DNA of 64,000 nucleotides from Rhodanobacter denitrificans (GTDB lineage: Bacteria; Pseudomonadota; Gammaproteobacteria; Xanthomonadales; Rhodanobacteraceae), in contig NC_020541.1 in assembly GCF_000230695.2 (NCBI RefSeq), forward strand, positions 1,860,001 to 1,924,000, given 5' to 3'. Shown here in pieces: positions 41,873 to 62,495 of the stretch. The position numbers were made by a program, and so were the translations under genes. Numbering within the stretch: the first letter of the stretch is position 1; each line of letters opens with the position of its first letter. The notes under the pieces were generated by a model. The model saw nothing but the letters and a program-made list of their open reading frames with translations. It made no database searches and was not told the DNA's origin.

Positions 41873-41881
41873 TGGCTTCAG

Positions 41882-43960: not shown

Positions 43961-44063
43961 GCATGGCTCCAGTGGATAAGGAAGCTTGGCGCCGTCGGAA
44001 TTCGCCAAGCAAAAACCGCCGACCCGATGGAACTTCATTCGCCGGATCGGTCCGTCGTGCAGC

Positions 44064-45622: not shown

Positions 45623-48600
45623 GACATACCTCCGCGGTTGCATGGGCGAACCGCAGGTAAAGGATGGGAAGCAGGATCAGGGTCAGCGCAGTGGCGGTGA
45701 CCAGGCCACCGATGACCACGATCGCCAGCGGTCGCTGCACTTCGGAGCCCGGACCGCTGGCGAACAGCAGCGGGATCAGGCCGAAGGCGGTGATCGAGGC
45801 GGTCATCATCACCGGACGCAGACGGCGCTCGGCACCGACGACGACGCATTGCAGTCGACTCAATCCTTCGGCGTGCAGCTGATTGAAGTAGCTGACCAGC
45901 ACCACGCCGTTGAGCACTGCGATACCGAGCAGCGCGATAAAGCCGACCGATGCCGGTACCGAGAGGTATTCCCCCGTCACCCACAAGGCGATGACGCCGC
46001 CCATCAGCGCGAACGGGATATTGCTCAGCACCAGCAGCGATTGGCGTACGGATCCGAAGGTGGAGAACAGGATCAGGAAGATCACGCCGAGCGCGAGCGG
46101 CACCACCAGTGTCAGCCGCGCCGCCGCCCGCTGCTGGTTCTCGAACTGTCCGCCCCAGCTGATCCGGTAACCGGTCGGCAAGCTCACCGCCTTGGCGATC
46201 TTTGCCTTGGCCTCTTTCACGAAGCCCACCAGATCGCGGCCGCTGACGTTGGCGATGACCACGCTGTAGCGGCTGCCCATCTCGCGATCGATCTTCACCG
46301 GGCCGCCATCGCGCACCAGCCTGGCCACGCTTTCCAACGGCACGCTGGTGCCATCGGCGGCCGTGATGCGCAGCATCGCGAACTCCGCTGGCGACAGCTT
46401 CACGCGCTCCGGTCCGCGCAGCACGATCGGCACGCGCTGGTTGCCTTCGATCACCAAGCCGGCGCGCTGTCCTTCGATCTGGGCGCGCAGCGCGTCCTGC
46501 ACGTCTTCTACCGACAGACCAAACTGACCGGCCGCCAGCCGATCCACGATCACCCGCAGGTATTGCACGCCGTCGTTCTGCACGGTGTAGACGTCCTGGT
46601 TTCCAGGAACGGTTTTCACCTGCGCTTCGATCTGGCTCGCGAGCTCGTCCAATATCGCGAGGTCGGGGCCAAACACCTTGATCGCCAAGTCGCCGCGCAC
46701 GCCGATGATCATTTCCTGCACGCGCATGTCGATCGGCTGGGTGAAGCTGTATTTGATGCCTGGCAGTTCATCGAGTACGCCGCGAATTTTGGTGATCAAC
46801 GCGCCTTTGTCTTTGGCCTGCCATTCGTTGGTGGGCTTGAGTACCAGAAACGTGTCGGTCTGGTTCAATCCCATCGGGTCCAGGCCGATCTCGTCAGAGC
46901 CGGCGCGGGCCACCACGCCGATGATCTCGGGGACCTTCGACATCAGTGCCTGCTGGATCTTCAGATCGAGCGCGGCGCTTTCCTCCAGGCTCACGCTGGG
47001 CAGTTTCTCGATACCGACGATCAGGTCGCCCTCATTCATGGTCGGCATGAACGTCTTGCCGACCATCACGTAGACACCGATCGTGACCGCCAACATCACG
47101 CCCGCGGCAATGAACACCACGCGTTGACGCCGCATGGCCCACGCCAGCGCCGGGCGGTAGGCGGCCAGCAGTTTGCGCGGCAGCCACGGATCGTCGCGTG
47201 GAACCTTCCTGAGCAGGAACGACGCCAGCACCGGAATCACCGTCAGCGACAGCACCAGCGAGCTGGCCAGCGCAAACGCGATGGTCAATGCCACCGGCAC
47301 GAACATCTTGCCTTCCAGATCCTGCAAGGTCAGCAGCGGCAGGAACACCGTTATGATGATCAGGATGCCGGCCGTGACCGGCACCGCCACTTCGCGTACG
47401 GCGCGAAAGATGATGTGCAGACGCGGCAGTTTGCCACCGGCCTTGTCATGGGCCAGGTGCTGCACGATGTTTTCCACCACCACGACCGCCGCATCGACCA
47501 GCATGCCGATGGCGATTGCCAGACCGCCGAGGCTCATCAGGTTGGCCGACATCCCGCCCACGCGCATCAGGATGAAGGTGGCCAGCGCCGCCAGTGGCAA
47601 GACCACGGCGACCGTGATCGCCGCCCGTACGTTGCCCAGGAACGCACCCAACAGCACGAGCACCAACAGCGTGCCTTCGATCAGCGCCTTCGTGACCGTG
47701 CCCACGGCCTTGTTGACCAGGTCGGCGCGGTTGTAGAACACCTGCAGCTTCACGCCCGCGGGAAGGCTCGGTGCCAGCTCCGCGAGCTTTTTCTCCACGC
47801 CGCTCACCACGTCGCGGGCGTTGGCGCCGGCCAGGCCGAGCACCAGGCCTTCGACGGCTTCGCCGCGACCGTCCTTGGTGACGACGCCATAGCGCGTCAG
47901 CGCACCGATGCGCACTTCGGCGACATCACCCATGCGCACCGGCACGCCATCCTTGCGGGTGACGACGATGGCGCGCAGATCGTCCAGATGGCGGATGTTG
48001 CCCTCGGTGCGAACCAGCAGCACCTCGTCACCCTCGCTGAGCCGGCCGGCGCCGTCGTTGCGGTTGTTGGCACCGATCGCCGCTTGCAAGTCGTTGGTCG
48101 AAAGACCCACCGCGGCCAGCTTCACCGGGTCGGGCACCACCTCGTAACTGCGCACCAAGCCACCGAGCGCGTTGACGTCGGCTACGCCCGGCACGGCGCG
48201 CAGCGCCGGCCGGATCACCCAATCAAGCAGGCTTCGACGTTCGGTGATCGACATGTTTTCCGCTTCCACGGTGAACATGAACATCTCGCCCAGCGGCGTG
48301 GTGATCGGCGCCATACCGCCGCTGATGCCTTCGGGCAAATCGGCGAGGATGCCGTTCAAGCGTTCGGCCACCTGCTGACGCGCCCAGTAGATGTCGGTGC
48401 CATCCTGAAAGTCGATGGTCACGTCGACCAGGCCGTACTTGGACACCGAACGCAGCATGCGCTGATCGGGGATGCCCAGCATCTCCACTTCGATCGGAAT
48501 CGCAATCCGGGTCTCGATCTCTTCCGGGGTCATACCCGGCGCTTTCATGATCACCTTGACCTGGGTGCTGGAGACGTCGGGGAAGGCATCGATCGGCAGG

Positions 48601-48698
48601 TGCTGGAAGGCGAACCAGCCGGCGGCGGCCAGCAAGGCGGCAGCCAACAGCACGAACAACCGTTGGGCGAGCGCGAATTGAATCAGGCGATTGAGCAT
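45615..48698 (-). CDS. Heavy-metal RND efflux pump (second czcA-like)
   Basis: This 1027-residue HME-family RND pump has TM4 signature GGLAIAIGMLVDAAVVVVEN. It has neither the CzcA DFG motif nor the CusA Met triad (DLIVGIEKLPSVSL in place of [10 protein letters not shown]), so a divalent metal is likely. The nearby RcnR-like sensor makes nickel or cobalt candidates. Twelve helices and two periplasmic loops are complete. It starts two bases after the adaptor stop. Confidence 0.9.
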   Translation of the reverse strand: MLNRLIQFALAQRLFVLLAAALLAAAGWFAFQHLPIDAFPDVSSTQVKVIMKAPGMTPEEIETRIAIPIEVEMLGIPDQRMLRSVSKYGLVDVTIDFQDGTDIYWARQQVAERLNGILADLPEGISGGMAPITTPLGEMFMFTVEAENMSITERRSLLDWVIRPALRAVPGVADVNALGGLVRSYEVVPDPVKLAAVGLSTNDLQAAIGANNRNDGAGRLSEGDEVLLVRTEGNIRHLDDLRAIVVTRKDGVPVRMGDVAEVRIGALTRYGVVTKDGRGEAVEGLVLGLAGANARDVVSGVEKKLAELAPSLPAGVKLQVFYNRADLVNKAVGTVTKALIEGTLLVLVLLGAFLGNVRAAITVAVVLPLAALATFILMRVGGMSANLMSLGGLAIAIGMLVDAAVVVVENIVQHLAHDKAGGKLPRLHIIFRAVREVAVPVTAGILIIITVFLPLLTLQDLEGKMFVPVALTIAFALASSLVLSLTVIPVLASFLLRKVPRDDPWLPRKLLAAYRPALAWAMRRQRVVFIAAGVMLAVTIGVYVMVGKTFMPTMNEGDLIVGIEKLPSVSLEESAALDLKIQQALMSKVPEIIGVVARAGSDEIGLDPMGLNQTDTFLVLKPTNEWQAKDKGALITKIRGVLDELPGIKYSFTQPIDMRVQEMIIGVRGDLAIKVFGPDLAILDELASQIEAQVKTVPGNQDVYTVQNDGVQYLRVIVDRLAAGQFGLSVEDVQDALRAQIEGQRAGLVIEGNQRVPIVLRGPERVKLSPAEFAMLRITAADGTSVPLESVARLVRDGGPVKIDREMGSRYSVVIANVSGRDLVGFVKEAKAKIAKAVSLPTGYRISWGGQFENQQRAAARLTLVVPLALGVIFLILFSTFGSVRQSLLVLSNIPFALMGGVIALWVTGEYLSVPASVGFIALLGIAVLNGVVLVSYFNQLHAEGLSRLQCVVVGAERRLRPVMMTASITAFGLIPLLFASGPGSEVQRPLAIVVIGGLVTATALTLILLPILYLRFAHATAEVCHG

Positions 48699-48699
48699 C

Positions 48700-49812
48700 T
48701 CATTCGCCCCCGCTCTCGCCGAGCCAGGCGGCCTTCAGCGCGATCACGCTGCTGACGGCGACCTGGTCGGCGCTCTTGAGAGGGCCTAGCACGCTTACCG
48801 ATTGCCCAGCGCTGGCGACCACGTTGACCTTGCGCGCGTCGAAACCCTGAGCGGTCCGGACAAACACGTAGGCCTGCTCACCCTGGCGGGCGACGGCTGC
48901 CAACGGCAGCGACCACGCATTCGCGCGATCGGCAAATGGCACCTGCACCTGCACGGCCTCGCCCGGTCGTACGCGATCGACCCCGGCGCTGATTCGCGCA
49001 CGCAGGCTCACGGTCTGGCCTTCGCCCACCACGGCTCCAGCCTGCATCGGTCGGGCCGTGACGGGGCGTCCCACGACGGTGATGTCGCCGTCCTTCGCCC
49101 AGGCATCGGCGCGCTTGGCCGGAATCTGGATGTCCAGCCACAGTTGGCTGGGATCGGCAATGCGCAGCAGCGGGTCGGCGGCAGCGACCCGCTGGCCCGG
49201 TTTGGCCTGCAGATCGACCACGAGCCCCGCGCTACGCGCCTTCAGCGTCAATGATTCCTGCAAGGCACCGGAGCCGATCAGGCGAGCAACGGCCGGCGCG
49301 TCCAGGCCCGCCAGGCGCAGCGCGGCGCTGGTCTGGCGCAAGCCTGCCTTGCCATCGCTGGCTGCGGCCTCGGCTTCGAGCAAGCGACGTTGCGGCACGA
49401 TGCCTTCGGCGAACAGCTGCTTCTCGCGCTGCAAGGTCTGCTGCGCCAGGCGGTTCTTGTTGGCCGCTTCCAGCGCGGCCAACTGCAGCTCACCGAATTC
49501 CGGGCTGGCCAATCGCAACAACGGTTGGCCGATCGTCAATCGTTGATGTTCGGTCACCAGCAATTGCTCGACGACACCGGCGACCGGCGCGCTGATCACC
49601 ACATCCTGCTGGGGCGGCAGAATCACCCGCGCCGGATAACTCAGGCCACGGATCGCGGCGGGTTTGTCCAGCCGTTGCACGGTAATGCCCAGGGCGCGCA
49701 TCTGTGCGGCGGATACCGGAAACGTGTTGTTGACGGCGACAGCAGCCACCGGGAAAAGCAAGGCACCAACCAGCGCGCTGCGCGCGCCAGTTCGCCACAG
49801 TCGATAACTCAT
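48700..49812 (-). CDS. RND periplasmic adaptor of the second HME operon
   Basis: The 370-residue membrane-fusion protein has a signal peptide (VGALLFPVAAVAVNN) and lipoyl half-motifs (VISAPVAGVVEQLLVTEHQR; KARSAGLVVDLQAKPGQRV). A beta-barrel and tail domain follow (WLDIQIPAKRADAWAKDGDI). It is the first structural gene of the operon, 260 bases after the small exported protein at 50072. Those 260 bases contain no gene I can support. Confidence 0.88.
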   Translation of the reverse strand: MSYRLWRTGARSALVGALLFPVAAVAVNNTFPVSAAQMRALGITVQRLDKPAAIRGLSYPARVILPPQQDVVISAPVAGVVEQLLVTEHQRLTIGQPLLRLASPEFGELQLAALEAANKNRLAQQTLQREKQLFAEGIVPQRRLLEAEAAASDGKAGLRQTSAALRLAGLDAPAVARLIGSGALQESLTLKARSAGLVVDLQAKPGQRVAAADPLLRIADPSQLWLDIQIPAKRADAWAKDGDITVVGRPVTARPMQAGAVVGEGQTVSLRARISAGVDRVRPGEAVQVQVPFADRANAWSLPLAAVARQGEQAYVFVRTAQGFDARKVNVVASAGQSVSVLGPLKSADQVAVSSVIALKAAWLGESGGE

Positions 49813-50071
49813 GGGACAGGACTCCAGAGAGGGAATGAATCAGGCGCGCTTGTGCCGCAAGAAAGCGGCACAGAGAGGCCTTGCATCGAGCCAAAAGCCC
49901 GGACGCCAGCAGGGGAAGAGGAAGAAAAAATCCCATCGGGTTGCCCGCAGCCACGGACAAGCCCGACCCAGCTGCGCACGGCAGCCGGCGAGGACAACGC
50001 AAAGAAGACACCAGCGTGCTCCGATCGGATCGGGTCAACGAAAGGCCGTTATCGGCCGGTCAACGTGGCGA

Positions 50072-50461
50072 TCAGGCGATAGGAGGGCGGTGCAGCGTGG
50101 CGAGCAAGCCTTGCGGCGTCAGCGCATTGCGCCACGGCGGGCAGTGATTGCCCGCCGGGTTGAGCTGATGAAGCTGGCCGAACAGCGCGGGCAGCGTGAA
50201 GGCTGCACCGGCAAGGTAATGCACATGGGTATGCGAAACATCGGATGGCGTCATGTCAGCGACATCGGCATTGGCCACATGGTGCTCGAGGGTCTGATCA
50301 GCCGTAAGCAGGAACCCGGACGCCTGGTTGCCGTCGTGAGCATGGACCACCCACCGCGGCATCGTCGACAACATCACGATGGCCAACACCAGCAACAGCA
50401 TCCACCGCACCATCGTGAGATGGCGTCGATGCAATCGGCGGATGGTTCGAAGGGCAGACAT
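50072..50461 (-). CDS. Small exported His-rich protein preceding an RND operon
   Basis: The 129-residue protein has an N-terminal membrane or signal segment (MVRWMLLLVLAIVMLS). A His-rich middle (HAHDGNQ, EHHVANADVADM, SHTHVHYLAG) and the end LATLHRPPIA follow. The ending is nearly the same as that of the small protein at 27641 (LLRPPIA), though the centre uses His rather than Cys. It is divergent from the RcnR-like sensor, with the G-tract operator between them. A periplasmic nickel/cobalt-binding or sensing role is a reasonable guess. Confidence 0.6.
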   Translation of the reverse strand: MSALRTIRRLHRRHLTMVRWMLLLVLAIVMLSTMPRWVVHAHDGNQASGFLLTADQTLEHHVANADVADMTPSDVSHTHVHYLAGAAFTLPALFGQLHQLNPAGNHCPPWRNALTPQGLLATLHRPPIA

Positions 50462-50532
50462 GGGAACTCAGCATGCGGGGTACGGACGAAACAGGCAAGC
50501 CATCACGAGAAATTGCAGCGGGTGGCGATGGC

Positions 50533-50560
50533 TATAATACCATAGGGGGGTATATTATAG
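50533..50560. promoter_or_regulatory. CsoR/RcnR-type G-tract operator over a promoter
   Basis: The stretch ATA-GGGGGG-TAT (50542-50553) has the A/T-flanked G6 tract that CsoR/RcnR-family repressors use. It lies within a larger imperfect palindrome running from TATAAT (50533-50538) to TATTATA. It is centred between the divergent small exported protein and the RcnR-like gene, so it can repress both. Confidence 0.65.
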
Positions 50561-50600
50561 CCCGTCTACGATCACGACGGTTGCCGGCAAGGAGAAGTTC

Positions 50601-50879
50601 ATGGGACATCTGGCGAAGGACAACAGCAAGTTGCTTGGCCGCGTGCGCCGTATCAAGGGCCAGATCGAAGGCGTCGAACGGGCACTGAACAGCGAAAAGG
50701 ACTGTGCCGAGATCCTGCGACAAATCGCCGCGATCCGCGGCGCGATCAATGGACTGATGGCCAAGGTCGTCGAGGACCATATCGAGATGCACGTGGCCCA
50801 TCCGGACATCACCGATCCCGCGGAACGCAAGCAAGGCGCGCAAGAACTGATCGACGTGATCCGCACGTATCTGAAGTAA
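50601..50879 (+). CDS. RcnR-like Ni/Co-sensing repressor
   Basis: The 92-residue all-helical repressor is of the CsoR/RcnR/FrmR family. The full nickel/cobalt ligand set of RcnR is present: His3, Cys35, His60, His64 and His67 (MGHL, KDCAE, EDHIEMHVAHP). CsoR-type copper sites (Cys-His-Cys) and the FrmR Glu64 are absent. It should release DNA on Ni(II)/Co(II) binding. A matching G-tract operator lies 48 bases upstream. The P-type ATPase gene follows 44 bases later, so it may be autoregulated together with that gene. Confidence 0.88.
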   Translation: MGHLAKDNSKLLGRVRRIKGQIEGVERALNSEKDCAEILRQIAAIRGAINGLMAKVVEDHIEMHVAHPDITDPAERKQGAQELIDVIRTYLK

Positions 50880-50923
50880 TCAAGTTTCGCCGCAACCCAG
50901 TCTGCAGCAATCAGGAGTTCCTC

Positions 50924-52882
50924 ATGACCGACCCCCAGCCGCGTGCTGACACGGATCTATCGGCGCAGGCAGAGCAGCGCACGATCGCGCCGGCGGCCGA
51001 GCCGCATGATCACGAACACGCTTTCGACATCCCGGAGGCGCTGCGCATCGGTGCCGTGGCGCTGGCGGCGATCGCCGTGTGGTTTCACTGGTGGGAACCG
51101 TGGCCCCGATTCAGCGTGATCGGCGTGGCTGGATTGCTGATCGGCGGTTGGCCGATCTTCAAGGAGGCGATAGAGAACCTGCTCGCGCGGCGCATGACAA
51201 TGGAATTGTCGATGACTATCGCGATCGTTGCGGCGGCCGCCATCTCGGAATTCTTCACCGCGCTGATGATCACCGTGTTCGTGCTGGTGGCCGAGGTGCT
51301 GGAGGGCATGACGGTATCGCGCGGGCGACGCGCCATTCGCGATCTGCTGGATTTCCTGCCGCGCGAGGTCTCGGTTCGACGTGATGGCGCGATCCGCGAA
51401 GTCGACAGCGGCTCACTCGCCGTGGGCGATACCGTGCTGGTCAATCCAGGCGGCCGCATTCCCGTCGACGGCCGCGTCGTCGATGGGCATTCGTTTGTCG
51501 ACCAGGCGCGGATTACCGGCGAATCCATGCCGGTGGAAAAGACTGCCGGCACCGAGGTATATGCCGGCTCCATCAATCAATCCGGCGCGCTGGAAATTCT
51601 GGCGCAACGGATCGGCCGCGACACCAGCTACGGCAAGATCATCGATGCCGTGGAAGAGGCGGAGCGTTCGCGCGCTCCGGTGCAAGGGCTAGCCGACAGA
51701 ATGGCCGGCTACCTGGTCTATTTCGCGCTGGCCGCAGCGCTGCTGACCTACCTGATCACGCGGGACATTCGCGCCACCATTTCCGTGATCATCGTCGCCG
51801 GGGCCTGCGGCATCGCCGCCGGTACGCCGCTGGCGATCCTGGGTGCCATTGGTCGCGCGGCGCGTGGCGGCGCCATCATCAAGGGCGGCCTGTATCTGGA
51901 GCAGCTCGGCCGGGTGGATACCGTTGTGCTGGACAAGACCGGCACGCTGACTTATGGCGAGCCGGAAGTGCAGTCACTGGTGGTCGCCCCTGGTGCCGTC
52001 GTCGACGATGTCCTACGGCTGATGGCATCCGCTGAGCTGCGTTCGGAGCACCCATTGGGCAAGACGCTGGTGCGTTATGTGCGTGCGCAGGGCGTGACAC
52101 CCGTCGAGCCGGAGGCTTTTCAGTACACGCCGGGCCTCGGCATTTCCGCCACCGTCAACGGCGAGCGCATCCTGGTGGGCAATGAAGCGCTGTTGCGCAA
52201 GTGTGGCATCGCGCTGCCCGAGGAGCTGCTGACGCAGCAGCCGGCCGCCGCCAAGGTATGGCTGGCCCGTGGCGATGCGTGGCTGGGCATGGCCATCGTC
52301 GCCGATACCATCCGCAGCGAATCGCGAAGCGCGCTGCAGGCAATGCACGCCATGGGTCTTCGCACCGTGCTGTTGACTGGCGATACCAAGGCCGTCGCCC
52401 AAGCCGTGGGCGCCGAGCTGGGTATCGACACCATCGTGGCCGACGTGCTGCCGGACGCCAAACTCGCCTACATCGAACAGCTGACCGCCGGCAAGGCCGT
52501 GGTGGCCATGGTCGGCGACGGCATCAACGATGCGCCCGCCCTGATGAAGGCGCATGTCGGCGTGGCGATGGGCTCGGGCACCGATGTCGCCCGCGAGAGC
52601 GCGGACGTAGTGCTGCTGGGTAACGATCTGGTCAAGTTCGTGCAGACACTGCAGCTGGCACGACGTACGCGACGCATCATCTGGGCCAACTTCGTCGGCA
52701 CGGTGGCGGTGGATCTCGTCGGCATCGCGCTGGCCGCCGCCGGCTTGCTGAATCCTTTGCTTGCCGCTTTTATCCATGTCGCTTCGGAGATGACCTTCAT
52801 CCTTAATTCGGCCCGATTGCTGCCGGCCGTTGAGTCCAAAGAGAAACCCGGTGCCGTACGGCTAGTTGCAGAGCATCACTGA
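50924..52882 (+). CDS. Heavy-metal P-type ATPase with GAC in place of CPC
   Basis: The 652-residue P1B-type ATPase has a short His-rich start (PHDHEHAFD), no HMA domain and a complete ATPase core (TGESMP, DKTGT near 335, HP in [15 protein letters not shown]). The usual transmembrane metal motif is altered: where copper pumps have [11 protein letters not shown], this protein has AGACGIAAGTP near residue 293. Only the second Cys is kept. The metal cannot be assigned from motifs. The upstream RcnR-like gene suggests Ni/Co. The stop is one base before the next gene. Confidence 0.85.
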   Translation: MTDPQPRADTDLSAQAEQRTIAPAAEPHDHEHAFDIPEALRIGAVALAAIAVWFHWWEPWPRFSVIGVAGLLIGGWPIFKEAIENLLARRMTMELSMTIAIVAAAAISEFFTALMITVFVLVAEVLEGMTVSRGRRAIRDLLDFLPREVSVRRDGAIREVDSGSLAVGDTVLVNPGGRIPVDGRVVDGHSFVDQARITGESMPVEKTAGTEVYAGSINQSGALEILAQRIGRDTSYGKIIDAVEEAERSRAPVQGLADRMAGYLVYFALAAALLTYLITRDIRATISVIIVAGACGIAAGTPLAILGAIGRAARGGAIIKGGLYLEQLGRVDTVVLDKTGTLTYGEPEVQSLVVAPGAVVDDVLRLMASAELRSEHPLGKTLVRYVRAQGVTPVEPEAFQYTPGLGISATVNGERILVGNEALLRKCGIALPEELLTQQPAAAKVWLARGDAWLGMAIVADTIRSESRSALQAMHAMGLRTVLLTGDTKAVAQAVGAELGIDTIVADVLPDAKLAYIEQLTAGKAVVAMVGDGINDAPALMKAHVGVAMGSGTDVARESADVVLLGNDLVKFVQTLQLARRTRRIIWANFVGTVAVDLVGIALAAAGLLNPLLAAFIHVASEMTFILNSARLLPAVESKEKPGAVRLVAEHH

Positions 52883-52883
52883 C

Positions 52884-53063
52884 ATGGCGCTTGCGTCACC
52901 TTGCGGCGACGTCTGTCGGTTCAATCGAAAAGCCGACGTGTGCGTTGGCTGCTTCCGCACGACAACGGAGATTCGTCAGTGGCGGAAGCTCACCGATTAT
53001 CGGCGGCGGGAGATCTTGGCGGATCTTGCGCGACGGGCTCACAAGCTGAAGGGCGGTCGCTGA
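52884..53063 (+). CDS. DUF1289 small protein
   Basis: The 59-residue protein has the family signature SPCGDVCRFNRKADVCVGCFRT, a cluster of four Cys, followed by a basic helix (IRQWRKLTDYRRREILADL). The Cys set suggests a metal or zinc-ribbon site; the function of DUF1289 proteins is unknown. It starts one base after the ATPase stop, so it is probably co-transcribed with it. Confidence 0.75.
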   Translation: MALASPCGDVCRFNRKADVCVGCFRTTTEIRQWRKLTDYRRREILADLARRAHKLKGGR

Positions 53064-53182
53064 TTTCAAGGATCGCCTGGCCAAGGTGTAACGGCGCGCC
53101 GACTGCACTGCGGAAACACCGCGTTCCAGCCCTCGCCGCTTAGCGAAAACTTCTTCCTACACCATCCTGTCGAGCCACCACC

Positions 53183-53533
53183 ATGCCGTGGAGCATCACC
53201 AAATACCTCATCACCGCAGCTGTCGTAGTAGCCGTCTCCGAACTGGCCAAACGCAGCGATCGGTTAGGCGCCTTGCTTGCATCACTTCCGCTGGTGACGC
53301 TGCTCGCGCTGACCTGGCTCTATCTGGACAAGCAGCCCGCGGAGAAGATCGCGAATCACGCCTGGTATACGTTCTGGTATGTCGTGCCGACGCTGCCGAT
53401 GTTCCTGATCTTTCCGCGTCTGTTTGCACGCTTCGGTTTCTGGCCTGCATTGGCACTGAGCGCAGTCATTACGGTGGTGTGCTTTGGCATTTTTGCGCTG
53501 GCCGTCAAGCCCTTCGGGATCAAATTGCTTTAG
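53183..53533 (+). CDS. DUF3147-like membrane protein
   Basis: The 116-residue protein has four predicted transmembrane helices (KYLITAAVVVAVSELAKR, LLASLPLVTLLALTWLY, WYVVPTLPMFLIFPRLF, ALSAVITVVCFGIFALAV). The layout is that of the small DUF3147 family, whose role is unknown. It lies between the last metal gene and the transposase and may mark the edge of the metal island. Confidence 0.65.
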   Translation: MPWSITKYLITAAVVVAVSELAKRSDRLGALLASLPLVTLLALTWLYLDKQPAEKIANHAWYTFWYVVPTLPMFLIFPRLFARFGFWPALALSAVITVVCFGIFALAVKPFGIKLL

Positions 53534-53580
53534 CTTCTTCTTTTTTTGGCGGCGGCAAGCATGTCGCACCGTGGATTCGC

Positions 53581-56550
53581 ATGAGCACGATTCAGGACAC
53601 TGCCTATCCCCAATTGAAGAAGGATCTCAGCGCCCGTGAACTGGCGGTCATATACACGCCCACGGCCGATGAGTGCGCGTTTGCCATGGGAGTTTCCGCA
53701 CGTAAGCCCACCCAGGCATTGCTGTTGATCCAGCTAAAAATCCTTCAGCGCTTGGGTTACTTCGAGTTGCTGTCGACGTTGCCGCGTGTGATTGTCGATC
53801 ACGTATGTAGCAGTGCCCAGATGCGTGTTCCCACCATGCGCGAATTGAAGGCTTACGACGCGTCGGGAAGCCGCTCGCGACATCTGCAGAAGATCCGTGA
53901 CTTTATCGGTGTGCAGCGGTTTGTGGAAACCGATTGGTCCTGGCTGGATCAAGTTGCCCGCGAGGCGGCCTCGACCAAACAGGAATTGGAGGACATCATC
54001 AATGTCCTCATTGAAGAACTCGTTCGGCAGAAATTCGAACTACCCGGGTTCACTCAGCTTGTGCGTGCCGCGCGGGCGGCGCGTAACGCTGTCAACACCG
54101 CAATCTTCAAATCGGTCACGGAGCAGTTGTCGGCCGAACAGCGCCAGATGCTGGACGACCTGATCCTGCAGCGGCGTGGGGTCACCCTATGGGATCAGCT
54201 CAAGCGTGAACCGAAAAGGCCCGCCGTGCGTGAAGTGGCAAAATTTCTTGAGCATATCCGCTGGCTCAAAAGCCTGGGTCATGGATTACCCGATACCCGC
54301 GAGATGGCGGTGACCAAGCGCCATCAGTTGATGTTGGAAGCTCGGGCGTTGGATGCGAAGGACATCCGAACCGTCAAGCTGATCAAACGTCATACCCTGG
54401 CCGTGCTGCTGATCCAGTCGCAGTTGGAGAAAGCCACTGACGACGTAGCGAACATTTTCATCAAGATCATGCATGGCATCGACAACCAGGCCGAGGAGCG
54501 GCTGCGCCAGTATCGCTTGGACCATGCCGAGCAAACCGATCGTCTGATTGGCCAATTTCGCGAGGTGCTGGCCGCCATGCAAGAGGGCGAGTCGGCCAAG
54601 AAGCGCGTGGCAAATATGGAACGGGTGCTGGGCGATGATCCGGAACAATGGATCATCCAATGCGATGAGCACGCCGCCTTCGCGGGGAACAACTATCTTC
54701 CCTTCATGTTGAAACCCTACGGGAACAAACGTGCGTTGCTGTATCAATGCCTGGACGTGCTCGAACTTCAGTCCAGCTCACAAGACGATACGCTGGTACG
54801 AGCCATCGCCTGGATCCGAGAGTGGCGCACGGCACGCCGCGAACACCTCGATCTAGCGGTGTTGCCCAAGGGCATCGATCTGAAGCGTTGGCTGCCCGAC
54901 GCCTGGTATCGCCTGATCGCAGTGGTGTCGCCAGAAGACGAACCACGTATCCATCGAAAATACCTCGAACTGTTCATCTGCATGTCGATCATGAAAGACC
55001 TGCAGTCCGGCGATCTGTACTCGGCGCACAGCAACGACTTCGATGACTACCGGGAACATCTGGTGTCTTGGGATGAGTACGGCGGGGAACTGAGCCGCTA
55101 CTGCGATATCACCTCGCTGCCCAAGGATGGCGCGGGTTTTGTTGCACAACTCAAGGCTGAGATGTCGACGCTGGCCAAGCAGGTGGACGACAGCTTTCCC
55201 GAGAACGAGTTCGTACGGATCGGTGACAACGGTCTGGTCATCCAGCGGCTCGACCGCAAGCAGGATCCACCGGAGTTGGCTCTGTTGGAGGCACGACTCA
55301 AGGAGGATATGCCTCCCGTCAACATACTGGACCTGCTGACCGAGTCCGAGCAGTGGCTCGACCTACATCGATTGTTCGGACCATTGTCCGGCTTTGAAAC
55401 CAAGATCGACGACCCACGAAAACGCTTCATCACCACCTTGTTTTGCTACGGCTGCAACCTGGGCCCCACGCAGACAGCGCGCTCGGTGCAGGGGCTGAGT
55501 CGCAAGCAGGTCGCGTGGCTCAACCTTCGCCATATCACCGAGGAACGTTTGGACAAGGCGATCGTACGGGTGATCAACGCCTTCAACACCTTCGCCTTGC
55601 CCAAATTCTGGGGCACCGGCAAACACGTTTCGGCCGACGGCACGAAGTGGAGCATCTACGAGCAGAACCTACTATCGGAGTACCACGTTCGCTATGGCGG
55701 TTACGGTGGCATCGGCTATTACCATGTCTCGGATATGTACATCGCGCTCTTCAGCAACTTCATTCCGTGTGGCGTGCATGAGGCGGTTTATATCCTCGAC
55801 GGCCTGATCAAGAATGAATCTGATGTGCAGCCGGACACGATCCACGGTGACACGCAGGCTCAGAGTGCACCCGTGTTCGGCTTGTCGCACCTCTTGGGCA
55901 TCCGTCTCATGCCGCGTATCCGTGGCATCAAACAGCTGGTGTTCTACAAGCCCGACCGGAAGGCCAAATACGATCACATCAACAGCTTATTCACCGAAGC
56001 GATCAACTGGGAGCTCATCGAGCGGCACTACCCGGACATGCTGCGCGTGGCCATCTCGATCAAGGCAGGGCGGATCACTCCCTCAATGATCCTTCGGCGC
56101 TTGGGTGTGGCCAGCCGCAAGAACAAGCTGTATTTCGCGTTCCGCGAACTCGGTCGGGCGATTCGAACCCGGTTCCTCCTGAACTACATCAATGATGTTG
56201 AGCTGCGCCGCGTGATCCACCAGTCGACGAACAAGAGCGAGCAGTTCAACGACTTCGCCCAATGGTTGCACTTCGCGAATGACGGAATCATTGCGGAAAA
56301 CATTCGCCACGAGCAGCGAAAAGTCGTGAAATACAACCACCTCGTGGCCAACATGGTCATCCTGCACAACGTCCATACGATGTCGCGGACGCTGAAAGTT
56401 CTTCAAGAGCAGGGCGTTCCGCTCAGCGAAGAGCTGCTGAATCGGCTGTCGCCATACCGGCGAGAGCATATCAATCGGCTAGGCCACTACTCACTGGACT
56501 TTGAGCGATACCAAAGCGCCATGGCCAAAGACATTAAATTTACCTTGTAG
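53581..56550 (+). CDS. tnpA: Tn3-family transposase TnpA
   Basis: The 989-residue DDE transposase of the Tn3 family catalyses replicative transposition. The DUF4158 N-terminal DNA-binding domain begins with YPQLKKDLSARELAVIYTPT. The catalytic domain carries the first Asp in SADGTKWS near 685, a second Asp in TIHGDTQAQ near 757 and Glu in NKSEQFND near 887. The start at 53581 gives the family's usual length; the 131-codon extension upstream overlaps another gene. A terminal-repeat-like sequence follows 55 bases after the stop. Confidence 0.95.
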   Translation: MSTIQDTAYPQLKKDLSARELAVIYTPTADECAFAMGVSARKPTQALLLIQLKILQRLGYFELLSTLPRVIVDHVCSSAQMRVPTMRELKAYDASGSRSRHLQKIRDFIGVQRFVETDWSWLDQVAREAASTKQELEDIINVLIEELVRQKFELPGFTQLVRAARAARNAVNTAIFKSVTEQLSAEQRQMLDDLILQRRGVTLWDQLKREPKRPAVREVAKFLEHIRWLKSLGHGLPDTREMAVTKRHQLMLEARALDAKDIRTVKLIKRHTLAVLLIQSQLEKATDDVANIFIKIMHGIDNQAEERLRQYRLDHAEQTDRLIGQFREVLAAMQEGESAKKRVANMERVLGDDPEQWIIQCDEHAAFAGNNYLPFMLKPYGNKRALLYQCLDVLELQSSSQDDTLVRAIAWIREWRTARREHLDLAVLPKGIDLKRWLPDAWYRLIAVVSPEDEPRIHRKYLELFICMSIMKDLQSGDLYSAHSNDFDDYREHLVSWDEYGGELSRYCDITSLPKDGAGFVAQLKAEMSTLAKQVDDSFPENEFVRIGDNGLVIQRLDRKQDPPELALLEARLKEDMPPVNILDLLTESEQWLDLHRLFGPLSGFETKIDDPRKRFITTLFCYGCNLGPTQTARSVQGLSRKQVAWLNLRHITEERLDKAIVRVINAFNTFALPKFWGTGKHVSADGTKWSIYEQNLLSEYHVRYGGYGGIGYYHVSDMYIALFSNFIPCGVHEAVYILDGLIKNESDVQPDTIHGDTQAQSAPVFGLSHLLGIRLMPRIRGIKQLVFYKPDRKAKYDHINSLFTEAINWELIERHYPDMLRVAISIKAGRITPSMILRRLGVASRKNKLYFAFRELGRAIRTRFLLNYINDVELRRVIHQSTNKSEQFNDFAQWLHFANDGIIAENIRHEQRKVVKYNHLVANMVILHNVHTMSRTLKVLQEQGVPLSEELLNRLSPYRREHINRLGHYSLDFERYQSAMAKDIKFTL

Positions 56551-56559
56551 CCTCAAGGA

Positions 56560-56605
56560 CTTATTGCTCATTTTGCGAAAATTTCCAGAATCCCGGCCGA
56601 ACCTC
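56560..56605 (-). repeat. Tn3-type terminal repeat next to tnpA
   Basis: Read inward on the minus strand it starts GAGGTTCGGCCGGGATTC and continues into an AT-rich stretch. The first 18 bases match 14 of the 18 at the 61487 end (GGGGTCCGGCCGAGATAC). Its place just after the tnpA stop is normal for Tn3-family ends. It cuts the third CBASS gene exactly at codon 44. Confidence 0.6.
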
Positions 56606-56737
56606 ACGTTGGCAGGCGAGTGTGCCTTCGAAACGCCGCGCGTATCCCGCGCGCGGCAGCTGGGCGAAGCCGCGATCGTGCAATGCCCGCAGGGCTGCAG
56701 CGAGTTCGCCGTGTGCGACGAGCGGGGCGTCAGGCAT
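56606..56737 (-). pseudogene. Truncated third CBASS gene (cap2-like start)
   Basis: The ATG at 56737 overlaps the CD-NTase stop (TAATG). The frame gives 44 residues, including LRALHDRGFAQLPRAGYARR and FEGTLACQR, before it meets the transposon end at 56605 and stops at 56561. The pattern of a helix followed by a strand with EGTL resembles the start of the E2-like domain of Cap2, the gene usually found at this position. The identification is inferred from position and this short stretch. Confidence 0.5.
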
Positions 56738-57900
56738 TAGCCGGCCTTCGTGGCACCCACCACCGGAGGCACCACTTGGGCGGCCGGCACGCGGCGCACG
56801 TCGGTGCCATCGTCGGCTGCCACCAGTTCGCAGTTATCGGCGATGCGCGGGCCAAACTGCGCGCGCACGTTATCGACAGCCGTCTGCCTGAGGCCCGGCC
56901 CGAAGTGGCGGCTAAGGGACATCTGACGGGCCAGCGACTCCGCCCGCTGCACCGCGATCAGGCGCTCGCCGGATGACATGCGGTTAAAATCCTCCTCGCC
57001 GCCGTCAATGCCGCGCTCGTACACCCCGTCGCCCAACGCCCGGGCGAGTGTCATGGCGGCCCGCTCGACGGCCAGATCATCGCGTCGCGGGGTGGCGTCA
57101 AACGCTTGAGTAACCACGATCATGATCAATACCGAACTCGGACCGCCGCCATCGCGCCAGTGATAGTCGCGCCATGCCTTGAGGTAGCAGCACACACGCC
57201 GCAGCTGCTCGCCATGCACCAGCACTTGATCATCGAACCACTTCGCCACGGCCTCCGGATCGGACGGCAGCCAGCGGCCGTCACGCGTTGCTACATGGAT
57301 CTCGTCCAGCAGCTCCCAGAAGGGCTCCGGCGCTTCGTCCAGCGCCGCGCTTTCGCGTAGGTGAAGGTAGGCATGGTGGGCACTATTCAACGCCACGGCT
57401 TTTTCCATTACCTGGTGAAACTTGGCCTCGGGGGCGGCATACAGGGGCACATCGATGTGAGCCCAATCGGCAATTCGGATCCGAACGCAGCGTGTGTTGC
57501 CACGCTCCAGTCGCCAGCCCTCGCGTTCGCACAATTGGCCCAGCGAACGTTCCACCAGCTCAAAATACAACTTGGCCATGCGGGCCGGCGGGGCATGCTC
57601 GTCCCACACGGTCACCGGCAGATAGACGCCGAAATCCCAGTCCATCTCCTGCGGTGGGCGGTGGGCGGCTTGCACGCAGGTCTTGTAGGCCCACGAACCC
57701 TGAGTGCGAAAGCGCGGCGTCACCATGCGATCCATGCCAAGCACGGTAGTTGTAGCTGCCCGAATGTCCGCGCGAAGATGCTCGCGAATGGCATTTTTGG
57801 CGGCCATCAGCGTCCGACGCTGACTATCCGTCGGCGCAATCACCTCATCGAAGCTGTCGGGCGCGCCCGCGTTCAAAAACAACTTATGCAGTGACAGCAT
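56737..57900 (-). CDS. CD-NTase (DncV-like cyclic oligonucleotide synthase) of CBASS
   Basis: The 387-residue cGAS/DncV-like nucleotidyltransferase makes a cyclic nucleotide signal on phage infection. The nucleotidyltransferase motif GSWAYKT is at 68-74. The metal-binding Asp pair is in MDWDFGVYLP (Asp87, Asp89) and the third Asp is in HIDVPLYA (Asp150). The layout resembles clade A, V. cholerae DncV, whose motif is D-x-D-D-G. The start at 57900 overlaps the end of the phospholipase gene by 17 bases. The product is probably cGAMP or a related molecule; this is inferred from its partner. Confidence 0.9.
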   Translation of the reverse strand: MLSLHKLFLNAGAPDSFDEVIAPTDSQRRTLMAAKNAIREHLRADIRAATTTVLGMDRMVTPRFRTQGSWAYKTCVQAAHRPPQEMDWDFGVYLPVTVWDEHAPPARMAKLYFELVERSLGQLCEREGWRLERGNTRCVRIRIADWAHIDVPLYAAPEAKFHQVMEKAVALNSAHHAYLHLRESAALDEAPEPFWELLDEIHVATRDGRWLPSDPEAVAKWFDDQVLVHGEQLRRVCCYLKAWRDYHWRDGGGPSSVLIMIVVTQAFDATPRRDDLAVERAAMTLARALGDGVYERGIDGGEEDFNRMSSGERLIAVQRAESLARQMSLSRHFGPGLRQTAVDNVRAQFGPRIADNCELVAADDGTDVRRVPAAQVVPPVVGATKAG

Positions 57901-58957
57901 CGCGAGCGACTCCTTCTTCGTGGTGGGCATGGATACCGTGGTAGAAGCGGGGGGCGATGGGGGAGTGTTGGAGGACGGTCCGAAAAGCTGGGTCACCAAG
58001 ACACCATTTCGCGCGTTCGGCGCCCACACCAAGCAGCACTTCGCGTGCGGCCGCGTTGGCCTTGTCGAGTGCCACCGCGCGAGCACGTGCATCGGTCAGG
58101 TCGTCATCCACGTGGAAGTATTGGCCAGGAGCCAGCTGATGGCCCAGCAGGTGATGGACCAGCGATTCCTGCGCGGAGATGGCGACGCCAAACAACCGCT
58201 TGGGCGTTTCCGCCGGGTGCCAGCCGCCCCAGTCGTAGGTGCCACCACTCCGATTGCGCCGTGGGTCAACGGTGAATCGCGCGGACATGGTGCCGATGGC
58301 GACTAGGCAGATGTCTTCCCGGGGGCGGCCGAGGAAATGTTGGGCCTCATGCAGGGCGAGCAAACCCGGGGCGTTGGCAAAGAGTCCGCCATCGATGTAC
58401 TGACGATGATCGAAGACGTGGCGCGGAAAGTATGCGGGGGCTGCACTGGTGGCCAAGGCCACATCAATCAGCTGGTAGCGGAAATCGCGGGAGAAATTCG
58501 GGTGATGCGGTGTCTTGAAGAGCACCGGGAGGCCAGTGCTGTAGTTGATGGTGGGTACCAGCACCGGGTGAAGGCACGCCTCCAAACGGCGATCACCGAA
58601 CAGGTCATCCTGCGCCAGCAACGCGGCCAGCGGTGCCTGCGAGTAAGGGGCGCGGACGATGCCGCGCAACGACCACCGACGCCGAAAGATCGCTTCCCCG
58701 TGCCGCTCGAAAAGCGTCACCATACGCTCCGCGGGAATTTCCAGCGCCACCGCCAAGGCCAGGATGCCCCCGATGGATGTGCCGGCGATGAGATCGAAAT
58801 GGCGGCCAATGGGCGCCCCGATATGTTGTTCGAGGTCGGCCAAAATCTTCGCGGTATATAACCCGCGGTAACCCCCGCCGGAGAGGGCAAGAATCTGGAA
58901 TCGCTGGTTAGGTGGGCGTTCCGAACCCTGCCCGATAGCCACTGCGGACGTGCTCAT
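57884..58957 (-). CDS. capV: CapV-like patatin phospholipase, CBASS effector
   Basis: The 357-residue patatin-family phospholipase has the oxyanion motif SGGGYRG (27-32), the nucleophile in GTSIGG (Ser61) and the catalytic Asp in DGG (Asp189). In CBASS such an enzyme is switched on by the CD-NTase product and degrades the cell membrane, aborting infection. It is the first gene of the operon. The start at 58957 follows GGGGAAAG; an upstream ATG at 58972 is possible. Confidence 0.92.
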   Translation of the reverse strand: MSTSAVAIGQGSERPPNQRFQILALSGGGYRGLYTAKILADLEQHIGAPIGRHFDLIAGTSIGGILALAVALEIPAERMVTLFERHGEAIFRRRWSLRGIVRAPYSQAPLAALLAQDDLFGDRRLEACLHPVLVPTINYSTGLPVLFKTPHHPNFSRDFRYQLIDVALATSAAPAYFPRHVFDHRQYIDGGLFANAPGLLALHEAQHFLGRPREDICLVAIGTMSARFTVDPRRNRSGGTYDWGGWHPAETPKRLFGVAISAQESLVHHLLGHQLAPGQYFHVDDDLTDARARAVALDKANAAAREVLLGVGAERAKWCLGDPAFRTVLQHSPIAPRFYHGIHAHHEEGVARDAVTA

Positions 58958-59080: not shown

Positions 59081-60226
59081 TCAACATCGTATTTTCTCGG
59101 GCTCTTCACACGCCACGACGGTGGGGCGGCCGACCGATCCTTCATCGGCGTCGGGAGCATCCATCAAGCGGGCTGCCGGATTCTGGTCTGCCGATCCGGC
59201 ATGGAAATAACCCATCACACTACTGACCGACCGATGCTCGGTCATCGCCATCAACGCGGGCAAGGCGACACCTTGGCGCGCGCCCTCGGTGACGAAGCCC
59301 GAGCGCAGGCTGTGGCCCCCGAAATCCCCCGTGAGCCCCGCGAGTGCCGCGCGCCGTTGCACGATGGCCCCGACCGCCGCCGGCGACAACGATCCGCCGA
59401 TCCGCTGCTTCCAGAGGCGCCTAAAGATCGCGCCTTCGGTGAGCCCACTCGCATCGAGCCAAGCACGCAGGGCAATCGCCGCATTGCCTAGGAGCGGCTT
59501 GTCCGGCGTGTCGGTGGCGGTTGGACCCGCCTGGCGGGTCTTGCTACAAGGCAGGTGATAAACATAGCCTTGGTCGATGCCCTTCAAGTCGGCCAAGTCG
59601 GCCGCGGCCACCTCGCTACGCCGCCGGCCACCGCTGGCGAACGCGAAGCAGAGCAGGGCTCGGTCTCGCCGGCCCTCCAGCGAGTCGTCGCAGGTGGCCA
59701 GCATGGTTTCGAGCTCCTGACGAGTGATGGCTGTCTTCTTGGTCGGCCGCTCGCCGCGCTTGGTCGCCGCCCGGCGAGCGCGGGCCAGCAGGTGGCGCAC
59801 GCTCGGGCTCGCGCAAGGATTGGTCACGCGCCGCAGTTGATGTGCCTTGGACAGCACGGCGACCCGATGTGTCAGTGTGGCCAGCTTGAACGGCCCGGTT
59901 TTTTGCTTGAAGCCGCCAGCGATCAAGGCCGCATCCAAGGCCGGTGGCAGTTCCCAGACCAAACCGTGCTTGCCGCGGCGCGCCGTGTGGTCAACCAGGA
60001 ACTGCACGACCACAGCCTCCGACAACGGCAACACCAGCGTCTGCCCGTAGCGGCCGGTGAACCAGGCCGCCCAGTAGCGCAAGGCGCTGGCGTAGCTGCG
60101 GGTGGTGTTCGCCGCGACCGCTTCCGCCAGGAGTTCACGGACCGCGTCCGCCGCGCGCGCATCCAGCGTCGCCGGATCCAGCATGGGTAAGGCGTTCGCC
60201 AGCGGCAACAGGTCATGTTTTTTCAT
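59081..60226 (-). CDS. tnpS: Cointegrate-resolving tyrosine recombinase TnpS
   Basis: The 381-residue tyrosine recombinase has an N-terminal core-binding domain (TTRSYASALRYWAAWF). The catalytic set follows: Arg in ASGGRRRSEVA, HSLRSG (HxxR), TEHRSV (His) and the Tyr of MGYFHAG. Divergence from a KfrA-like gene with a short AT-rich gap between them is the known tnpS-tnpT arrangement of Tn4651 and TnXax1 transposons, where the pair resolves cointegrates made by TnpA. Confidence 0.85.
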   Translation of the reverse strand: MKKHDLLPLANALPMLDPATLDARAADAVRELLAEAVAANTTRSYASALRYWAAWFTGRYGQTLVLPLSEAVVVQFLVDHTARRGKHGLVWELPPALDAALIAGGFKQKTGPFKLATLTHRVAVLSKAHQLRRVTNPCASPSVRHLLARARRAATKRGERPTKKTAITRQELETMLATCDDSLEGRRDRALLCFAFASGGRRRSEVAAADLADLKGIDQGYVYHLPCSKTRQAGPTATDTPDKPLLGNAAIALRAWLDASGLTEGAIFRRLWKQRIGGSLSPAAVGAIVQRRAALAGLTGDFGGHSLRSGFVTEGARQGVALPALMAMTEHRSVSSVMGYFHAGSADQNPAARLMDAPDADEGSVGRPTVVACEEPEKIRC

Positions 60227-60334: not shown

Positions 60335-61225
60335 ATGCGCACAGGGATCACCCAAGACCAAGTCAACGCCGCCGCCGACGCGTTGGTCGCCGCCGGCGAC
60401 AAACCGACCGTGGAAAAAATCCGGGCCGCCTTGGGCACGGGCTCGCCGAACACCGTGACGCGCATGCTGGAGGTGTGGCGCAATCACTTGGCCGAACGCC
60501 TGCAGCAGGTGCTACAGCTGCCGGAGCTGCCGCCCGAAGCCGGGCAGGCGATGACCGAGTTGTGGCGCTTGGCGGTGGCGCATGCGGATCGCCTCCTCCA
60601 GGCCCGTGTGACCGAGACGCGCGACGCGTTGGCCACCGAGGCAGCTCACTTGGCCGAGGAACGGGCCCGCTGGGCGGCCACTCTGGCGGACGCTGAGGCC
60701 GCTGTGACCCAGGCCCAAACCCAACGCGAATTGTCCGAAAAGACCTGCACAAACTTGGACAGCCAGCTACGTGACAGCCACGCCTTGCGGGACGACTTGG
60801 TGCAGCAGCGGGATCGCCTGCAGGCGCTCTGCGATCGACAAGTCGCCGACATCGAGGCGCTGCAACGGGAAAAGAACGCGTCGACAACGGCGGCCGTCAA
60901 TGAGCGAGAGCGTGTGGAGGAGCATGTCCGTGCGGTGGAAGATCGCGCGCACCAGGAAGTGGACCGCGCGCGCCAGGAGCTCCAATCCTTTCGGCAGCAA
61001 CTGGAGGTACAGCGCCGCGAACATACCAAAGAGCGGGCGCAGACTCAGCGACAGCACAAGGCGCTCCAGCATGCGTTGCGAGAGGCCGAGAAAGCGGCAG
61101 CGCGTCATGCGGGGCGCGCGGATGCGTTGGAAGTGGCACGAGCCAAGGACAAGTCCGTGGCGGCAGCGAGCAAGCGTGGAAAACGGGTTCCTGCCAAGAA
61201 GCCACGCGGTGCGGGCCGCGCCTAA
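60335..61225 (+). CDS. tnpT: TnpT-like (KfrA-type) recombination accessory protein
   Basis: The 296-residue protein has an N-terminal KfrA-like DNA-binding domain (GITQDQVNAAADALVAAGDK, PTVEKIRAALG, SPNTVTRML). A long coiled coil (about 90-270) and a basic Lys/Arg/Ala tail (KSVAAASKRGKRVPAKK) follow. It is divergent from tnpS; TnpT proteins bind beside the recombination core and enhance TnpS-mediated resolution. A plasmid KfrA homologue is the alternative, but the pairing favours TnpT. Confidence 0.85.
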   Translation: MRTGITQDQVNAAADALVAAGDKPTVEKIRAALGTGSPNTVTRMLEVWRNHLAERLQQVLQLPELPPEAGQAMTELWRLAVAHADRLLQARVTETRDALATEAAHLAEERARWAATLADAEAAVTQAQTQRELSEKTCTNLDSQLRDSHALRDDLVQQRDRLQALCDRQVADIEALQREKNASTTAAVNERERVEEHVRAVEDRAHQEVDRARQELQSFRQQLEVQRREHTKERAQTQRQHKALQHALREAEKAAARHAGRADALEVARAKDKSVAAASKRGKRVPAKKPRGAGRA

Positions 61226-61439: not shown

Positions 61440-61487
61440 TTTTTCAGCCCGAGTGTCCTATTTTTACACGTATCTCGGCCGGACCCC
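61440..61487 (-). repeat. Tn3-type right terminal repeat
   Basis: Read inward on the minus strand it begins GGGGTCCGGCCGAGATAC and continues with the AT-rich stretch GTGTAAAAATAGGACACT. The start GGGGTC, and the GCCGAGATA and GGACACT elements, are what Tn4651/Tn5041-type ends look like from memory. The first base outside, 61488, is the start of dnaE2 sequence. The 250 bases between this end and tnpT hold no recognisable gene. Confidence 0.65.
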
Positions 61488-62495
61488 GGCTACACGGCGG
61501 CATTCGCCGCGCGCATCTTCGAGCAGATCAAGGGCTTTGGTTCCTACGGTTTCCCCGAATCGCACGCGGCCAGTTTCGCCAACCTGGTCTACGCCTCGTG
61601 CTGGCTGAAATGTCATTACCCCGCGGCGTTCGCCTGCGCGCTGCTCAATGCGCAGCCGATGGGCTTCTACGGACCGAGCCAGATCGTGCAGGACGTGCGG
61701 CGTCATTGCGTCGCGGTGCGCCCGGTGGATGTGCGTTTCAGTGACTGGGACTGCACGCTGGAACCGGACCCGCGCGGCCATGCCGAGGCGCGCGCGATCC
61801 GGCTGGGCCTGCGCATGGTTCGTGGGTGTTCCGAAGCGGCAGCGCTTCGCCTGATGGCCGCGCGCCGGCAGCAGCCGTTCGCCGACGTCACCGACCTGTG
61901 CGTGCGATCCGGCCTCGATCGCCGTCACCAGGAGCTGCTGGCCGATGCGGCAGCCTTGCGCGGGCTGGCCGGCCATCGCCATCGCGCATGCTGGACGGTG
62001 GCCGGCGTCGAGGCGCAACTGCCGCTGTTCGGCAACACCAGTCCGGCCGAGCGGGCCGTGACCCTGCCGCTGCCGACGCAGGCCGAGGACACGCTGGCGG
62101 ATTATGCGCGGGTCGGCCTCAGCCTGGGCGTGCATCCGCTGCGACAGATCCGCGCCCGCCTGGACGCGGCGCGCTGCATCGACGGCAAGGTCCTGCGTCG
62201 GCAGCCGCACCACAGCCACGTGCGTGTGGCCGGGCTGGTGACGTCGCGACAGCAACCGCAAACCGCCAGCGGCATCATCTTTGTGACGCTGGAGGACGAG
62301 CATGGCCTGATCAACGTCATCGTGTGGCGGCAGGTGGCCGAAACCCAGCGCCGGGCGCTGCTGCAGGCGCGGTTGCTGGCAGTGGAAGGGCAGTGGGAGA
62401 ACGTCGAGGGCGTCCGTCACCTGGTCGCACACCGGCTGCAGGACCTCACCCCGCTGCTGGGCACGCTGGATGCGCGCTCGCGGGACTTCCACTGA
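61488..62495 (+). pseudogene. dnaE2: C-terminal third of DnaE2 (ImuC), split by the element
   Basis: The open frame from the transposon end encodes about 335 residues of an error-prone DNA polymerase III alpha subunit. It contains the family sequence [20 protein letters not shown], helix-hairpin-helix region and the C-terminal OB fold ([20 protein letters not shown]). The polymerase active-site half is missing. In the mutasome DnaE2 works with ImuA/ImuB in SOS mutagenesis; this copy cannot. The truncation point coincides with the transposon end. Confidence 0.85.

Follow-up and report, generated by a model that had tools for sequence, protein, structure and literature searches.

Why does an anti-phage operon of Rhodanobacter denitrificans stop 44 codons into its third gene, exactly where a transposon ends? 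The operon is a cyclic oligonucleotide-based antiphage signalling system (CBASS) and lies towards the right end of a 64,000-base stretch, the window of this analysis (G000:C1:1860001-1924000), in a genome consisting of a single contig of 4,225,490 bases, probably that of strain 2APBS1. A preliminary description of the window held that the operon sits inside a metal-resistance transposon, travels with it and has lost its activating half. The nesting is the reverse. Very probably, a type II CBASS operon is the cargo of a Tn4651-like transposon inserted in dnaE2, and has been split within cap2 by a second, metal-resistance transposon of 58,477 bp. This reading rests on the anatomy of the operon, on two insertions that each carry a target-site duplication, on an identical plasmid copy of the inner transposon, and on the conserved state of the operon's pieces.

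Two of the CBASS genes lie whole in the window, both on the minus strand. The first, capV (57884..58957), encodes a patatin-like phospholipase effector of 357 residues from the ATG at 58957, with 381.6 bits against the NCBIfam model for CBASS phospholipases (NF041079, cut-off 200) and E 4.6e-27 against Pfam Patatin. The second, cdnD (56737..57900), encodes a DncV-like CD-NTase (cGAS/DncV-like nucleotidyltransferase) of 387 residues, which reaches 342.2 bits against the model for CBASS synthases of cyclic GMP-AMP (cGAMP; NF041078, cut-off 150) and matches Pfam DncV-like_NTFase and DncV_C. With longer open reading frames (ORFs) as queries, PADLOC returned its Cyclase (E 1.9e-164) for cdnD and its phospholipase effector (E 2.8e-115) for capV; both assignments are further supported by invariant residues. 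The CBASS identity proposed in the preliminary description is thereby borne out, and the ORF positions agree with its account of the junctions: 17 bases are common to capV (58957-57884) and cdnD (57900-56737), and a third ORF opens with an ATG whose A is also the last base of the cdnD stop (TAATG). The CdnD protein ends in ATKAG, with the C-terminal glycine that serves conjugation in type II CBASS.

The third ORF (56737-56561, 58 residues) is a composite. Its first 44 codons (56606..56737, minus strand) are its own; the next 14, followed by a stop (56561..56605, minus strand), come from the inner transposon's inverted repeat. Pfam gave no match for the 44-codon piece; when searched alone against Cap2 profiles, as the preliminary description had proposed, it matches the PADLOC E1-E2 profile PDLC00853 weakly (positions 6-40, E 0.0085). 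It is firmly placed as cap2 because a piece on the far side of the transposon covers positions 43-545 of the same 546-position profile (E 4.6e-164), and the cap2 starts of some relatives agree. This far-side piece, found by following the genome to the left of the window, in keeping with a search that had likewise been proposed, is a 517-residue ORF outside the window (G000:C1:1856564-1858117, which is L003:12564-14117, minus strand). It carries ThiF and Prok-E2_B domains, the latter matched only from position 41 of 135, and is open from a GTG, with the frame remaining open further upstream (540 codons). Adjoining it is cap3 (L003:12106-12588, minus strand), which encodes a 160-residue JAB protein with E 8.8e-14 against Pfam Prok-JAB and E 3.2e-49 against PADLOC JAB; its 119.9 bits against the NCBI model fall below the cut-off of 200. 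No second cap2 was found elsewhere in the genome, where two other matches (37% and 34%) cover short ThiF stretches.

Since the cap2 remainder and cap3 lie beyond the inner transposon, the operon is complete and merely split, with 58.5 kb separating capV-cdnD-cap2(start) from cap2(rest)-cap3. It is correct that neither the cap2 remainder nor cap3 occurs in the window, as had been stated, but both stand about 1.9-3.9 kb to the left of its first base, open and conserved, and the supposed loss of the activating half does not hold. The operon has the same four genes as type II CBASS of the E. coli TW11681 and V. cholerae type: a DncV-type CD-NTase, a CapV effector within the operon and a Cap3 JAB/JAMM peptidase, with the phospholipase and cGAMP synthase models both over their cut-offs, the JAMM residues in Cap3, and the C-terminal Gly/Ala of the CD-NTase shared in the form of glycine. 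Unlike that type, it has no Cap2 E1-E2 fusion in one gene, cap2 being split after codon 44 by 58.5 kb, and its Cap3 scores below the NCBI cut-off. With cap2 present but divided, it is a broken descendant rather than an intact member of type II CBASS.

The transposon that divides cap2 occupies G000:C1:1858129-1916605 (plus strand), so that its left end is outside the window and the rest fills positions 1..56605. Its termini are 32-bp inverted repeats, 30/32 identical, of which the right one lies at 56574..56605 (minus strand), and it is flanked by the duplication ACGTT (56606..56610), whose twin ends at G000:C1:1858128. These features confirm that cap2 is cut after codon 44 at a Tn3-type end. 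The transposase gene, tnpA (53581..56550, plus strand), has its start taken from the annotation of the identical plasmid copy; a longer ORF from 53188 scores 711.4 bits against NCBIfam NF033527 (cut-off 500). At the opposite end are a tnpS-like tyrosine recombinase gene (160..1323, plus strand), annotated as a site-specific integrase in the plasmid copy and XerC-like far below the cut-off, and, divergent from it, a tnpT-like gene for a KfrA_N protein (L003:14976-16019, minus strand; E 7.9e-17).

The inner boundaries do not depend on cap2. When 72,556 plasmid records were searched with the transposase end of the inner element, 327 matched, and only NZ_CP088926.1 did so at 99% or more over the whole query. 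This plasmid, of 261,808 bp, belongs to the Tennessee strain R. denitrificans FW104-MT042, and its copy (NZ_CP088926.1:61673-120149) is without mismatches or gaps over all 58,477 bp. The plasmid copy is flanked by its own duplication, AGCAC, unlike the ACGTT at cap2. None of its 53 annotated genes (LRK55_RS18635 to RS18895) is named as CBASS; they include copper, arsenic, RND efflux and P-type ATPase genes. The genome of the window itself has an empty site of the plasmid type near 2,031,062, with one AGCAC and no element, where the plasmid flanks match at 93% on the left (1,465 of 2,673 bases) and 96% on the right. The flanks of the plasmid copy and this empty site thus fix the ends of the inner transposon independently. 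Boundaries at GGG with a GGCC duplication had also been considered and were dropped for want of a 5-bp duplication; ends beginning GAGGT were favoured by relatives and confirmed by the plasmid copy. In the part of PMC8809349 that compares FW107-2APBS1 with MT042, 1,011 of 3,447 orthologues are without substitutions. Set beside an identical 58 kb, this figure suggests that the transposon moved after the two strains split, and its entry into cap2 would then be recent. Separately, the stretch G000:C1 2.00-2.28 Mb contains several Tn3 transposases and sequences related to the FW104-MT042 plasmid.

The CBASS operon itself lies within an outer transposon. The right inverted repeat of this element (61454..61487, minus strand) is 29/34 identical to a left repeat at G000:C1:1831167, and the duplication GGCTA (61488..61492) has its twin just left of that position. 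The target was dnaE2: the 3' part of the gene runs from 61488 to 62495 (plus strand), while the 5' part (L087:4969-7167), beyond the outer left end, is cut after 732 codons and followed by the inverted repeat. In 10/10 same-genus loci tested (19 fetched), dnaE2 is contiguous at the insertion point. The outer transposase scores 773.5 bits against NF033527 (cut-off 500). A search of the genome for Tn3 transposases gave nine matches, two of them neighbouring parts of one apparently broken gene, and one match (G000:C1:1831345-1832508) lies near the outer left end. Directly upstream of capV, on the same strand, is the tnpS-like tyrosine recombinase gene of the outer transposon (59081..60226, minus strand; Pfam Phage_integrase E 1e-13), and divergent from it is a tnpT-like gene for a KfrA_N-domain protein (60335..61225, plus strand; Pfam KfrA_N E 9e-21). 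As the outer repeats and GGCTA enclose the operon, CBASS is cargo of the outer transposon, and the inner element sits in CBASS. The outer element now measures 90,321 bp, or 31,839 bp without the inner element and the inner duplication.

Both elements show the Tn3-family features of a Tn3-type DDE transposase, terminal inverted repeats and a 5-bp target duplication. The TnpT protein of the Tn4651 subgroup has a KfrA_N domain, and in layout both elements resemble the subgroup, a tyrosine recombinase gene and, divergent from it, a KfrA_N gene occupying the terminus away from tnpA. That subgroup is described as having tnpA plus divergent tnpS/tnpT (PMC7157771), and the tentative Tn4651-like label of both elements follows this gene layout. 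The two recombinases have no significant mutual similarity (E 0.041), and the KfrA_N proteins are 33% identical over 64 residues (E 1.4e-5). The elements differ from the subgroup in that the inner ends begin GAGGT, not GGGGT, and in their cargo, which is metal resistance in the inner element and CBASS plus other genes in the outer one. Tn7-like transposons with defence systems, as presented in PMC8649781, likewise have defence genes as cargo, whereas the carrier here is of the Tn3 family.

How complete operons look can be judged from 35 relative loci, 25 from one genome collection and 10 from a family search in which 11 of 233 genomes matched, the own genome included. The loci are not independent cases, because L006/L031, L011/L032, L007/L008, L018/L019 and the Brevundimonas loci L024-L028 hold the same or nearly the same operon. 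A relative of the cap2 remainder stands beside cdnD in 34/35; the exception, L029, tells nothing on this point, as its contig breaks off within cdnD. The cap2 relative is on the other side of cdnD in two Acinetobacter loci (L022, L023), and the order in close relatives is capV-cdnD-cap2-cap3. The cap3 gene is present in 24/25 collection loci; the 10 family loci do not reach far enough to include it; of eight that were refetched, seven had it, the eighth contig being 3.3 kb long. The comparison with uninterrupted operons that the preliminary description had called for places a counterpart of the 44-codon piece at the expected position in 14/35 loci and none in 21 (E 7.8e-6 to 0.63), the weak E-values being due to a query of 48 residues. 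In the two best matches, L014 and L033, the separately aligned cap2 pieces are 6 bases apart in one frame (L014 9301 then 9308). A C-terminal glycine ends the CD-NTase in 26/27 relatives listed. In the exception, at L005:9173 onward, the CD-NTase frame continues beyond the usual AG terminus to WRSK, without a C-terminal glycine despite the presence of cap2 and cap3.

The pieces of the operon appear well kept. Compared with 14 chosen relatives, CapV keeps 107/109 invariant residues, CdnD 97/99 and Cap3 34/34, the lipase, nucleotidyltransferase and JAMM motifs being among them. The Cap2 remainder keeps 81/86, with four further invariant columns upstream of it. In this family, phage infection causes the CD-NTase to make cGAMP, which activates the CapV phospholipase, and the membrane is destroyed; Cap2 conjugates the CD-NTase through its C-terminal glycine and raises its output, and Cap3 reverses the conjugation. 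The Rhodanobacter operon was presumably built for the same sequence, with cGAMP from CdnD acting on CapV. As a proposed course of events, the outer transposon would have landed in dnaE2 with all four genes, and the inner one would then have transposed into cap2 after codon 44. No full Cap2 would be expected any longer, because the start of the gene is on one side, the rest of E2, the E1 domain and the conserved cysteines are on the other, and no promoter-like site was found around the remainder: in the 3.1 kb of L003:12000-15100, sigma-70-like sites numbered 0 where shuffling predicts 0.7, a weak test in this organism. The split gene would thus yield no working Cap2, and cap3 would be cut off from the transcript of the operon.

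What such a split costs is best estimated from published Cap2 genetics. An E. coli operon with a mutated E1 or E2 cysteine no longer protects against T4, T6 and lambda; the same mutations leave the titres of P1, T2 and others unaffected, and protection against P1 requires cGAS, not Cap2 (PMC10097602). A B. cereus operon deprived of cap2-cap3 has no immunity left (PMC11153139). The Rhodanobacter defence is therefore probably gone, or restricted to phages against which CBASS acts without Cap2; on balance, it may well be dead or nearly so, and residual Cap2-independent defence has a real but smaller chance.

The alternatives can be weighed against this evidence. That CBASS is a passenger of the metal-resistance transposon, with cap2 and cap3 lost, was read from the window, where no cap2 remainder had been seen within the 64 kb and none shows among the ORFs of 52000-64000. 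It is refuted by the flanks and the plasmid copy: the cap2 remainder and cap3 are present across the element, CBASS is outside both its ends, and nothing in the identical plasmid copy is annotated as CBASS. Nor does the operon look like either of the forms offered for it earlier, a natural two-gene system or a decaying passenger, as judged from its conserved residues and the C-terminal glycine. A published survey found the final Gly/Ala conserved across 1,583 enzymes whose operons have full Cap2 and Cap3, and no such conservation where the operon has another architecture (PMC10097602), which argues against a natural two-gene system. A two-gene relative with a short tail was looked for among the 35 loci and none was found, L029 being uninformative. 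It is a different matter whether capV-cdnD protects against some phages as a working two-gene CBASS at present. Both genes are open with nearly all invariant residues kept, and the Cap2-independent protection of the E. coli operon against P1 sets a precedent; the B. cereus result, the Cap2-dependent kind of tail on CdnD and the retention of cap2 in every informative relative speak against it. Such partial protection is conceivable, though rather less probable than its loss.

Further points weigh against a split operon without working Cap2. The 517-residue remainder is open from a GTG, with its frame open upstream, and has the E1 domain and all relative-invariant cysteines, and a shortened E1-E2 enzyme expressed from the transposon end can be envisaged. 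This is quite unlikely, given that the first 44 codons lie across the transposon, that Prok-E2_B is matched only from position 41 of 135, and that the search for sigma-70-like sites was negative, weak as that test is here. The remainder also differs at five of its 86 invariant residues (P to S, D to G, L to V, Q to E, Y to F); these changes, three of them conservative, are the clearest sign of drift at the sequence level. Finally, two assemblies of strain 2APBS1 differ by 0.24 Mb according to section 5 of PMC8809349, and the region could differ between 2APBS1 stocks. The discrepancy might be taken to mean that a plasmid-borne transposon was misplaced into cap2 during assembly, which is very improbable: the ACGTT at cap2 is distinct from the AGCAC of the plasmid, misassembly is not expected to create duplications, and the plasmid-type site is empty in the same genome. 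One guess is that the 0.24 Mb represents an integrated plasmid.

A type II CBASS operon split in cap2 by the inner transposon is a natural knock-out with a readable history, in which the same 58.5-kb transposon is found on a plasmid and in a defence gene and the plasmid site without it still exists. The pattern points to recent movement among strains of a site contaminated with metals and radionuclides, apparently at the cost of a phage defence. A puzzling 'minimal CBASS' becomes an explained disruption, annotation of defence genes in a single window can miss half an operon, and a Tn3-family carrier is added for CBASS. The parts are of known kinds; in the main texts of the open literature, no report was found of type II CBASS as Tn3-family cargo or of this cap2 disruption, nor anything on Rhodanobacter 2APBS1 and transposons, and the main text of PMC8809349 has no occurrence of 'transpos', 'phage' or 'CBASS'. 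A wider generalisation is doubtful but can be stated: Tn4651-like transposons might be regular carriers of type II CBASS, with the operon placed by tnpS/tnpT and its expression perhaps tied to the transposon control region, and invading metal-resistance transposons might switch the defence off, which would make metal resistance and phage defence a trade-off within one nested element in a contaminated aquifer.

The outer arrangement may recur, to judge from the neighbourhoods of the relatives. Near CBASS, 4/35 loci (L006, L011 from Dyella flagellata, L016, L017) have a tyrosine-recombinase/KfrA_N pair, ten of the 35 having short flanks, and the recombinase is also near CBASS in G020, one of the eight refetched loci, another of the eight giving a weak match (31%). 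The recombinase, mostly with a KfrA_N-type neighbour, lies within a few kb of CBASS at L011:11365-13257 (where it is split over two frames), L016:14671-16843, L017:14570-16670, L006:2334-4560 and L091:12624-13649. It is present in 13/13 genomes searched, which were partly chosen for the neighbourhood. No Tn3 transposase matched at E 1e-10 in the genomes of L011, L016 and L017, so that the pairs there may lie outside any transposon.

CBASS DNA was also looked for on plasmids. Megablast of window positions 56606-64000 against plasmids gave no match, CdnD has protein matches on 28 plasmids, all below 60% identity, and for the outer element's left part there were 10 plasmid records with matches over short stretches only. 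The left flank matched six of 45 same-genus genomes, one being its own and the other five matching over 360-765 of 3,689 bases. The cargo of the outer transposon was mostly named by eye. Five of its proteins, including the KfrA_N protein, were scanned against PADLOC: four had no match, and a marginal match of the KfrA_N protein as JetC (E 0.00099) was taken as chance. The broken dnaE2 is part of a chromosomal imuA-imuB-dnaE2 set, whose imuA and imuB were identified by eye, and a second imuA region near 2.03 Mb of the same genome is 96% identical to that of the FW104-MT042 plasmid.

Several relatives have rearrangements of their own. In a Hydrogenophilus metagenome-assembled genome (MAG), a Tn3-type transposase cuts capV (L018:90-3750 compared with L019:7407-17170), with a resolvase-like ORF, named by eye, before the transposase; the remaining 9,764 bp are 99.3% identical to the intact L019. 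In so far as the MAG assembly holds, this appears to be another case of a CBASS operon interrupted by a Tn3-type element. In Polaromonas (L016:11355-12002, L017:11360-12031), a distant second CD-NTase (27-28% identity) directly follows cap3, possibly as part of tandem CBASS operons, and at L095:12632-13597 a second CapV-like phospholipase (42%) follows cap3.

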